Below are positions 3,701 through 29,953 of a stretch of 43,936 bases of DNA, in pieces. How positions within the stretch are numbered: the stretch's first letter is position 1; every line of letters starts with the position of its first letter. The translations under genes and the position numbers were made by a program. Origin of the DNA: Candidatus Kaiserbacteria bacterium. Its GTDB lineage: Bacteria > Patescibacteriota > Minisyncoccia > Phycocordibacterales > UBA2100. The DNA lies in NCBI GenBank assembly GCA_028286585.1, contig JAQBRI010000010.1, forward strand, positions 1 to 43,936. The letters are read 5' to 3'. The notes below the pieces were generated by a model. The model was given only the letters and a program-made list of their open reading frames with translations. It searched no databases and was not told where the DNA came from.

Positions 3701-3866
3701 TCTTCTTGAGGTATGCAATTTTCAGAGCCTCTCGGAGCGCGACCATTTTTTAAAGATTGTACTCGATCTATTTAAAAAGGAAGTGTAAAGCCGACGGCGC
3801 GAGAGGGACTAATTTTTCAGCAGAAAAATATAGTGTGTTCTGAAAATTCGTATGCCGTAAAGAAGA
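3701..3866. repeat. Structured intergenic element E2 (same fold as E1, with a UACU hairpin inside one arm)
   Basis: GGTATGCaATTTTCAGA/TCTGAAAATTcGTATGCC outer stem; GCCTCTCG/CGAGAGG; ATTTTTC-AGCA-GAAAAAT. Confidence 0.6.
3743..3785 (+). repeat. UACU-hairpin element copy C (partial, hairpin I plus linker)
   Basis: TTTTTAAA-GATTG-TACT-CGATC-ta-TTTAAAAA-GGAAGTG. Confidence 0.6.
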
Positions 3867-6843: not shown

Positions 6844-8325
6844 TTATGGTGTGTATACCGTTGATCGCAAATATTGTAGTGCATGAACAACTATTTCTTG
6901 TAGTTGAGAAAACTTTTGCTGACTGTTTTCGACGAATGTATTGAATGCCGGGGTAGGGGAATATCCAGGTTCATCACCAATGTTTTGGAGATTGCCGGAC
7001 GTAAATGTGCTTGAGCCTGGTATTTGTTGAGTCGGTGCAAGTGTTTGTGATGATGTGTTTGGGTTTGTATCTTGATTTGCTGTAGTTGAAACCATTTGAT
7101 CCGTCGAGCCGTATGTGTCGTTCGTGTCTTGTTCACCCATCGCATTCATTTTTTGAAAAAACGTTGCTGTAGTTTGGAGATCAGACACTTGTACGATGTC
7201 TGCATTGAGTGCGGTTGGTGTGGTAGTTGGTATTTTTGCAGTTCCAATAGTTCCAGGTGTGTTGATCTGTGTCGCAAGTTGGATTAACTGACTAGCTACG
7301 TTTGATTGTGTATTTGTTGACGTGCTTCCCGGGGTGACGATCCCATTAAATCCCAAAAAGAGTGATGAAATAGGATTGCTCGTGCTACCAGTGGAATTGT
7401 TTGTTAATCCAGTGCCAGTGAGTCCTGGAATTGATTGCTTTGAAATTGGAGGGAGTGAGGACGTGCTGCCGGTACTGCCTCCACTAGAAGAGGGAGAAGA
7501 GGGAGAAGAGGGAGAAGAGGGAGTCGAAGGCGTTGATCCTGAAGGAGAAGATTGTGGACTCTGTGCCGATGCTGGATAACAGATACCGTCAAATCCTTGT
7601 GTGCCGGCAGGACAGTTTTGCGTTGACTGATAATAATCTTGATATGCTTTGTTGCCGTCGTTATAAAGAGATGCAGGATTCGATCCGCCTCCGCCGCCTG
7701 CTATTTGGTTTTGGGTATTACTACCGCATACGTCACATTGATTGCGCGGAGGAAGTTTGGCCATAATCTGAATATGGCCAGGATCACAAAAGCCGGAAGT
7801 ATATGAACATCCAGTCTGAACGTTGAGGGTAGGAATAGGAGTCAATCCGTATTGTGGTGCGTTGGTGCGCATCCAGCGCAATGTTTCTTTTGAGGCATTA
7901 TTAAAATCTGCGGCAAGTCCGTATTGATGATATGAACCGCATGCACCAACTTGTGTTGCACCACTTGGTAACCCGGCCTGCGTTGCGGCACTTCGGTACG
8001 AGTCGGTGATCGTTGGTGGTCCGCCCGGGACTGCTTTCATAAGTTTAGCGAGGCGTTCTGCGTAATCCGAATTTAGACATTGGATTTTTGCCGGAGAACT
8101 TGAATGTTGCTTGAGGTATTCTTTTGCTGCACCAGCATCTTTTCCTGCGGCAGCATTGTTTGGTTGCCAACAAGAAGCAGACGTAGGAATGCCGGCTGCT
8201 GTAGCTTCGGCACGTGATGTACCAATCGGGACAGTACCAGCGGGGCAATCACTTTGCGCCGAAACAAATCCGCCATACATAAGCACACTCAAAAATGGGA
8301 GTGCTATCATGGCAAATTTCTTCAT
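6844..8325 (-). CDS. Secreted M15-like peptidase paralogue with Ser/Pro/Thr-rich tail
   Basis: YHQYGLAADFNN (HxxxxxxD), CDPGHIQIM; same architecture and C-terminal motif as the neighbour. Start at 8325 for the same reason. Confidence 0.7.
   Translation of the reverse strand: MKKFAMIALPFLSVLMYGGFVSAQSDCPAGTVPIGTSRAEATAAGIPTSASCWQPNNAAAGKDAGAAKEYLKQHSSSPAKIQCLNSDYAERLAKLMKAVPGGPPTITDSYRSAATQAGLPSGATQVGACGSYHQYGLAADFNNASKETLRWMRTNAPQYGLTPIPTLNVQTGCSYTSGFCDPGHIQIMAKLPPRNQCDVCGSNTQNQIAGGGGGSNPASLYNDGNKAYQDYYQSTQNCPAGTQGFDGICYPASAQSPQSSPSGSTPSTPSSPSSPSSPSSSGGSTGSTSSLPPISKQSIPGLTGTGLTNNSTGSTSNPISSLFLGFNGIVTPGSTSTNTQSNVASQLIQLATQINTPGTIGTAKIPTTTPTALNADIVQVSDLQTTATFFQKMNAMGEQDTNDTYGSTDQMVSTTANQDTNPNTSSQTLAPTQQIPGSSTFTSGNLQNIGDEPGYSPTPAFNTFVENSQQKFSQLQEIVVHALQYLRSTVYTP
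7487..7524. repeat. Short 9-bp tandem repeat coding SPS tripeptides
   Basis: gaagagggagaagagggagaagagggagaagaggga. Confidence 0.85.
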
Positions 8326-14149: not shown

Positions 14150-14317
14150 ATAATAAAAAACCCGCCACGGGTCTCGGCCTAGACCGAGCACATAAGTTTC
14201 CCTATGCGGCGAGTTAAGCGATCCCATGACGGGTTTTCAACGCTTAACTCGACTTCATGCCATGCCAATGCTTACGCTCTGGTTTAGGCACTACCCTTAC
14301 GGGTCAATATTCAGTTG
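14150..14317 (-). ncRNA. Structured leader/small RNA candidate (riboswitch- or attenuator-like) upstream of the PG-binding protein gene
   Basis: 11-bp stem CGAGTTAAGCG/CGCTTAACTCG; GAAA-capped hairpin; CTCGG/CCGAG hairpin; terminal ACCCG-TGG-CGGGT-TTTTT; upstream extended -10 TGCTAGTAT. Confidence 0.5.
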
Positions 14318-23443: not shown

Positions 23444-23517
23444 CCGCCCTTAGCTCAGTTGGTTAGAGCGCAGAGCTTATACCTCTGATGTCCCTGGTTC
23501 GAATCCAGGAGGGCGGA
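23444..23517 (+). tRNA. tRNA-Ile (anticodon UAU)
   Basis: CCGCCCT/AGGGCGG acceptor; GCTC/GAGC D-stem; CAGAG-CTTATAC-CTCTG; CCTGG-TTCGAAT-CCAGG; no encoded CCA. Confidence 0.92.
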
Positions 23518-23703
23518 CATATTTTTAACGAACGTGTGAGTATAAAAATAGTGAGTGGCCCTTGCGGCCCGGACATATTTTTAAGGAGCAAAGCGACTAT
23601 AAAAATAGTCGGGCCTCCTGGAGGGCGCTCATTTTTCATAGACAGTACTCTGTCTTATGAAAAAGGAAGTGCTGTCATGTACTCATGAGCAGCCGGACAT
23701 ATT
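23515..23703. repeat. Post-tRNA repeat cluster: GGACATATT(TTTAA) units at 23515, 23571 and 23695
   Basis: GGACATATTTTTAA...TATAAAAATAGT unit occurs twice, a shorter GGACATATT a third time; CGACTAT-AAAA-ATAGTCG hairpin. Confidence 0.65.
23631..23694 (+). repeat. UACU twin-hairpin element copy A
   Basis: TTTTTCATA-GACAG-TACT-CTGTC-TTATGAAAAA-GGAAGTG-CTG-t-CATG-TACT-CATG-ag-CAG. Confidence 0.7.
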
Positions 23704-29658: not shown

Positions 29659-29801
29659 TGCAAGACTCCACTCATATGACAAGGAACTTCTTGTCTGGGT
29701 AAAGACTACGCCCGGGTTACGGTTCCGTCAATGAATTTGTGACATCCGTACCAACAAAAGGGAGATGCCATAAAGACGAATAAATGATAGGATGTTTGCA
29801 C

Positions 29802-29887
29802 GGAGGATTGGATGAGTGGTTTAAATCAACAGTTTACTAAACTGTCGTCCTGTTATGGGACCGTGAGTTCGAATCTCACATCCTCCG
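29802..29887 (+). tRNA. Class II tRNA, predicted tRNA-Ser with anticodon ACU
   Basis: GGAGGAT/ATCCTCC acceptor; GAT/ATC D-stem; ACAGT-TTACTAA-ACTGT; long variable arm GTCC..GGAC; GTGAG-TTCGAAT-CTCAC. Confidence 0.85.
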
Positions 29888-29889
29888 CC

Positions 29890-29953
29890 CATTTTTTATT
29901 GACCGTACTCAGTCCCATAAAAAGGAAGTGCAGTCGTGTACTCACGAGCTGCC
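29890..29953 (+). repeat. UACU twin-hairpin element copy B
   Basis: TTTTTAT-t-GACCG-TACT-CAGTC-cc-ATAAAAA-GGAAGTG-CAG-t-CGTG-TACT-CACG-ag-CTG. Confidence 0.7.

Follow-up and report, generated by a model that had tools for sequence, protein, structure and literature searches.

A probable non-autonomous mobile DNA element behind the dispersed hairpins in Paceibacteria genomes

Introduction

Why should a bacterial genome contain several copies of a hairpin whose loop and linker are fixed, while the two strands of its stem differ from copy to copy and still pair? The question is raised by a stretch of 43,936 nucleotides from Candidatus Kaiserbacteria bacterium (contig JAQBRI010000010.1), referred to here as the window. 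An earlier note on this DNA described three hairpin copies (A, B, and C), two of them after tRNA genes, and took the preserved pairing as a sign of selection on the structure of RNA or of single-stranded DNA. Very small mobile hairpins have been described in Rickettsia, enterobacteria, and mitochondria. Here, we analyze these copies and their relatives in other genomes and argue, from sequence comparison, that the hairpins probably represent a mobile but non-autonomous DNA element of the Paceibacteria, designated E. The E family makes the mechanism of such movement testable, because it offers an empty and a filled site, precise junctions at tRNA ends, and in-frame gene insertions in a large family across many Patescibacteria genera. 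It would also mean that ultra-small genomes bear active-looking selfish DNA that alters tRNA trailers, terminators, and proteins.

Copies of the Element in the Window and in Related Genomes

Copies A, B, and C are present where they had been placed by the earlier note (Table 1). All three share hairpin I, with its UACU loop, and the linker GGAAGTG; in A and B this is followed by hairpin II, likewise with a UACU loop. In hairpin I, the A/T-rich lower stem is 8 bp long and is separated by a 1x2 internal loop from an upper stem of 5 bp, which the UACU loop closes; GGAAGTG comes next. The compensatory stem changes that had been described, by which pairs are kept despite differing sequence, were seen again, but the pairing is not unbroken, since B contains a C·A mismatch in its upper stem (GACCG/CAGTC).

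The first covariance model (R1), which covers hairpin I and the linker, was built from A, C, and three copies located on other contigs. It recovers copy B from outside its training set at an E-value of 3.5e-8, matches other untrained places at 1.9e-6 to 0.01, and finds about 13 places, B included, over the 885-kb genome. For a second model (R2), the training set comprised copy C and 17 others, with A and B left out; this model matches both of these in the window at the E-values listed in Table 1. The recovery of held-out copies by both models indicates that the copies are far beyond chance. The search for further copies by covariance model, which the earlier note had proposed, yields about 14 in the genome and up to 17 in relatives, with the pairing preserved.

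Table 1. Coordinates of the hairpin units and associated features in the window; the last row lists loci in other records.
Feature	Position	Strand	Sequence or model match
Copy A hairpin I	23632–23664	+	TTTTTCAT-A-GACAG-TACT-CTGTC-TT-ATGAAAAA; model match 23623–23684, E-value 1.3e-12
Copy A conserved linker GGAAGTG	23665–23671	+	sequence
Copy A hairpin II	23672–23692	+	CTG-T-CATG-TACT-CATG-AG-CAG
Copy B hairpin I, one C·A mismatch in upper stem	29892–29923	+	model match 29883–29943, E-value 3.6e-10
Copy B linker GGAAGTG	29924–29930	+	sequence
Copy B hairpin II	29931–29951	+	sequence
Copy C hairpin I, center of palindromic composite	3746–3778	+	model match 3737–3791, E-value 9.9e-11 (C in training set)
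Copy C linker GGAAGTG	3779–3785	+	sequence
Composite around copy C, left arm	3701–3727	+	pairs with 3838–3866
Composite around copy C, right arm	3838–3866	+	pairs with left arm
Related hairpin unit 1 after tRNA-Ile, weak member	23520–23550	+	ATTTTTA…TATAAAAAT; weak model match 23511–23572, E-value 0.36
Related hairpin unit 2	23577–23607	+	ATTTTTAAGGAGCAAAGCGACTATAAAAAT; apex type that of class-wide members
CGGACAT at tRNA-Ile 3' end, first of three perfect direct repeats	23514–23520	+	sequence
CGGACAT, second direct repeat	23570–23576		sequence
CGGACAT, third direct repeat, right after copy A	23694–23700	+	sequence
tRNA-Ile(tat), insertion hot spot	23444–23518	+	
tRNA-Ser(act), insertion hot spot; copy B starts at its 3' end	29801–29891	+	
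Loci of E in larger GTTTGCGTAAGTCC-tailed repeat	L133, L162, L169, L188, L200, L209, L217		LCFC01 and similar records

The general form of E is about 55 nt long and consists of GCGACC, a hairpin of variable sequence, and GAAGTACTCTTGTGGTG. Relatives carry a simpler form, in which GCGACC is followed by an A/T-rich stem with a variable apex and then by the same 3' sequence. Simple copies measure about 52–58 bp and the twin-hairpin form of A and B about 68 bp, so that units overall span 52–69 bp. Twin-hairpin units include A, B, G000:C5:66372, L018, and a triple in G015:C27; those of the window's genome (A, B, G000:C5:66372, and G000:C10:24423) stand after tRNAs. Copy C, G000:C8:40295, and G000:C14:23556 each form the center of a palindrome of ~165 nt, whose ~27-bp arms differ in sequence and keep their pairing. 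The loop and linker that had been reported as fixed are so inside the A/B/C subfamily; outside it loops vary, often with a GGAGC…GCGAC apex that is similar to a palindrome, TTGCGAG…GCGAAGCAA, which is itself a target of E. In genome G097 (L074, L082, L090, L095, and L098) the feet of the copies are near-identical and the apices wholly different yet paired. In Parcubacteria GW2011_GWA2_43_11, E is embedded in a longer repeat that has a GTTTGCGTAAGTCC-like tail, and it apparently stands either way round with respect to that repeat.

The spread of E is patchy and multi-copy: R2 matches 20 of 40 genomes of the same genus, with up to 17 copies each, and, at class level, 12 of 286. A strict consensus pattern returned 100 loci from 84,980 species, and all named records among them are Patescibacteria, nearly all Parcubacteria/Paceibacteria, including Kaiserbacteria, Taylorbacteria, Lloydbacteria, Nomurabacteria, Niyogibacteria, and an Elulimicrobium record. 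Flank conservation in this set is by construction, because the loci were picked by exact pattern; conserved flanks are seen, too, in alignment A3, for which hairpin I and the linker served to find the copies. The strict pattern has no match in viral contigs, on which ground a phage origin of E was ruled out. No Rfam family matches at E, and the literature searched, partial in coverage, contains no description of such an element in Patescibacteria. E is therefore apparently a family new to the literature, of an already known sort of mobile hairpin.

Insertion Sites and Evidence of Mobility

In genome G015 a dispersed palindrome dimer is found empty and, at one exact point, filled by a 52-nt E. 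The empty palindrome reads TCTTTGCGAGCGA|AGCGAAGCAATC around the insertion point, and the empty dimer is also given as …GTGTCTTTGCGAGCGA|AGCGAAGCAATCTAGGG…. In a direct comparison of three filled copies with six empty ones, both flanks match, and there is no target duplication beyond an ambiguity of 1 nt. This is the one empty/filled family found. The dimer (L224–L235) is a CGTC-type-like palindrome, TCTTTGCGAG…GAAGCAATC, dispersed with 22 matches. Its apex resembles the apices of many E copies.

Hairpins hold E elsewhere as well: stem-loops resembling terminators (L119 and L124), a palindromic repeat at several places in a Taylorbacteria genome, and the loop of another copy of E (G000:C7). 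Tandem copies also occur, and larger composites carrying E spread as units. Of 102 copies, 20 have a flanking stem of at least 7 bp, where about 4 would be expected. As such stems accompany only about 20 of the 102, the idea that E always caps a variable outer stem was ruled out, and palindrome loops are one target among several.

A 5S-like pseudogene has E inserted (ggtag|CGACC…TGTGTCA|ttagcgcc). Disruption of the 5S rRNA gene itself was ruled out: a normal 5S is present in the operon, and E sits in a second, truncated copy. At L025 (G010:C71) the truncated copy lies just after the normal gene, and its 5' part is replaced by another inverted repeat. At L057 (G062) and L071 (G173), E stands just upstream of a 5S rRNA gene, the latter site being the 23S–5S spacer.

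Protein genes are entered in-frame. The prmC/hemK gene in L199 contains an in-frame E, and alignment to solved HemK shows a 17-residue gap at E. A DnaQ/ExoX-like exonuclease gene of G015 (L219, G015:C27:5500-9500, contig bases about 7846–8060) carries three tandem 69-nt twin-hairpin units in-frame between conserved motifs, which translate as 23-residue repeats of the GFSKAGVPAKKISAAAGEYATAL type. A shared neighbor gene of E was ruled out, the neighbors being housekeeping genes. Neither transposition intermediates nor within-species polymorphic sites were seen.

From these sites we infer that the form of E that is recognized and moved would be a folded single strand of DNA. The invariant 5' foot GCGACC and 3' foot GAAGTACTCTTGTGGTG would serve as recognition and joining sequences, and the stem would need no more than the capacity to pair. 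Insertion would take place where single strands or hairpins are exposed, as at terminators, REPs, and tRNA ends, and the mover may be host functions or an unrecognized enzyme.

Search for an Enzyme

The main rival to movement by host functions or an unrecognized enzyme is movement in trans. E would then be REP-like, moved by IS200/IS605-type Y1 (HUH) transposases (RAYT/TIRYT) that use the feet as guide/cleavage sequences. Insertion without target duplication fits that enzyme family. Y1_Tnp genes are common in the genus, and all four genus genomes without Y1 in both searches also lack E. A single-stranded DNA hairpin with conserved feet likewise suits these enzymes (PMC8266576). However, three of the 16 carriers, G097, G140, and G147, have E without Y1 (present in the other 13), and G097 is 98% complete with seven copies of E, whereas G012 has 13 Y1 genes and no E; the two counts correlate weakly (rho 0.36, p 0.09). 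None of the Y1 genes of the 16 carriers is bracketed by E, and the nearest, in G015:C27, lies about 600 bp from the in-gene triple on one side only. In G000, the genome of the window, the one Y1 gene is bracketed by GGGGTCAGCCACG repeats of its own; these match GGGGWSAS, a motif that has been reported for TIRYT genes (PMC3733652). At that locus (L039, G000:C8:30954-34298) the sole Y1 gene stands within AATGGGGTCAGCCACGATTT repeats, TIRYT-like. Among the recurrent neighbor families of E there is no transposase or other mobile-element gene family. A RAYT/REPtron linkage was ruled out because Y1 genes, common as they are, are unlinked to E and absent in three carriers, and we regard movement by Y1 in trans as rather doubtful.

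None of G000, G007, G009, G015, and G032, all carriers of many copies, has a reverse transcriptase (PF00078), and the occurrence of this enzyme is hardly correlated with that of E (rho 0.09). Since neither Y1 nor reverse transcriptase is consistently found in carriers, host replication/repair or an unrecognized enzyme is implied. Tentatively, E may even belong to an unrecognized class of single-stranded DNA mobile hairpins without transposase or reverse transcriptase, in which recognition would fall to two fixed single-stranded feet, on either side of a stem free in sequence, and the targets would be tRNA 3' ends and hairpin loops. If true, this would provide a tractable bacterial model for the mobility of Rickettsia palindromic and mitochondrial hairpin elements.

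Stem Pairing: RNA or DNA

Of the 13 hairpin pairs in an 18-copy alignment, 11 have changed on both sides. The covariation score of this alignment, 0.451, compares with 0.131 in shuffles and at most 0.092 with partners slid. Strong stem covariation alone is not proof of a functional RNA. Intrastrand template-switch correction, not recognition, could be what keeps the pairing of E. On this explanation the repeats would be passive, generated by replication template switching or ectopic recombination with no dedicated enzyme, and it accords with the lack of an enzyme that tracks with E, with two-sided stem changes and almost no intermediates, and with nested and tandem copies and the spread of larger composites. 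Passive copying cannot explain, however, why long asymmetric feet are fixed across many genera with an apex free to vary, and the 1x2 internal loop of the UACU subfamily resists correction. We therefore consider it unlikely.

An RNA helix is expected to tolerate G·U more than A·C. The eight basal pairs of 96 copies (768 cells) comprise 695 Watson–Crick, 4 G·T, 3 A·C, and 66 other combinations, the last mostly from a first column outside the stem; stem offsets were set to maximize Watson–Crick pairs, a choice that does not favor A·C over G·T. Genes around the copies, called by a simple long-ORF rule, are co-directional with E in 27 cases, opposite in 28, convergent in 23, and divergent in 8, so that strand appears not to matter and promoters are avoided. 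The near absence of G·T together with the lack of strand bias indicates DNA, either as a folded single strand or as a cruciform. Of the selection on RNA or single-stranded DNA structure originally proposed, the kept pairing thus stands, and the RNA half is not supported, given the base-pair and orientation counts and the occurrence of tRNA-downstream copies both ways round.

The compensatory stem changes, the preference for gene 3' ends (convergent over divergent), and the copies adjoining tRNAs would be expected of a cis-acting structured RNA, active in a 3' UTR or in tRNA-trailer processing or stability. Such a role was rejected as very unlikely in view of the unbiased orientation and intolerance of G·U, the lack of an Rfam match, the copies in a pseudogene and in-frame in genes, and the very patchy distribution. 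An intramolecular pseudoknot between the UACU loop and AGUA in the linker was also dropped, because the spacer is too short to span the 13 bp of stem and members outside the subfamily do not conserve the loop. A structured RNA, LOOT RNA (RF03000, 82.1 bits), is located at 14173–14290 (-) of the window.

Copies at tRNA 3' Ends

The two copies reported to follow tRNA genes do so at different distances, B directly after tRNA-Ser and A about 110 nt past tRNA-Ile, with two related hairpins (Table 1) standing between. A trailer function was not upheld, and the tRNA association is best read as an insertion preference. Downstream of tRNAs E is present in both orientations. All seven reverse-oriented tRNA-adjacent copies begin directly after …CACCA, compared to 23 of 104 other tRNA genes in the same loci scored as encoding CCA; the forward twin-hairpin copies of the window's genome likewise start at tRNA 3' ends. 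As E ends in TGGTG, the CACCA is either the target or supplied by E. These exact junctions would suit a tRNA-primed retroelement, whose 3' UGGUG pairs with the tRNA CACCA and whose reverse copies arise when cDNA is joined to tRNA ends, but the reverse transcriptase that is missing from many-copy carriers and does not correlate with E makes this extremely improbable.

At the tRNA-Ile locus, three perfect CGGACAT repeats bracket three hairpin units, which looks like repeated target duplication, recombination, or tRNA-end capture. This bracketing does not fit the clean insertion in G015 and counts against the reading of E as a mobile element.

Comparison With Known Mobile Hairpins

IS200/IS605 ends and TnpA_REP substrates are single-strand hairpins with conserved foot sequences (PMC8266576). 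E resembles them in its hairpin with conserved feet. IS200/IS605 insertion generally causes no target duplication, and the G015 insertion is likewise without one, with at most 1 nt of ambiguity, but direct repeats are found at the tRNA-Ile of the window. E further differs in that it has no associated Y1 gene and that some carriers have no Y1 at all.

REP, REPIN, and CGTC- and GTAG-tagged palindromes are short hairpin repeats that lie close to the 3' ends of genes, sometimes inside genes, and seldom between divergent ones; frequent GT pairing has been reported for REPs, and the CGTC class also occurs without a dedicated transposase (PMC3733652; PMC3116915). E shares the position near gene 3' ends and the rarity between divergent genes (23 convergent, 8 divergent), and the GGAGC…GCGAC apices of many copies resemble the palindrome TTGCGAG…GCGAAGCAA. 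In contrast to REPs, E has no GTAG/CGTC tag, its ends being GCGACC and TGGTG (in alignment A3 and, by search pattern, in 104 listed copies); its feet are long and asymmetric, G·T pairing is almost absent, and no cognate RAYT/Y1 gene is flanked by E in the 16 carriers.

Rickettsia palindromic elements (RPE) are small dispersed palindromic repeats found in intergenic regions and in-frame in unrelated protein genes (PMC10969869; PMC3767692). E, too, is a small dispersed palindrome in a reduced bacterial genome, both intergenic and in-frame (prmC and the exonuclease). It is set apart by size and host, RPEs being about 100–150 bp long and found in Rickettsia/Wolbachia, whereas E is about 55 bp long and, by the strict pattern, found only in Patescibacteria. 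Unlike RPEs, E has invariant single-stranded feet around a sequence-variable hairpin, and its targets further include tRNA 3' ends and palindrome loops. RPEs, like E, are not known to have a mobilizing enzyme.

Mitochondrial double-hairpin or repetitive hairpin-forming elements comprise single and double hairpins, with tandem copies and insertions in rRNA, intergenic regions, and genes (PMC2800124). E likewise has single- and double-hairpin forms, tandem copies, and insertions in an rRNA copy, in intergenic regions, and in genes, but it is found in bacterial genomes, has other sequences and conserved feet, and keeps a family consensus across many genera.
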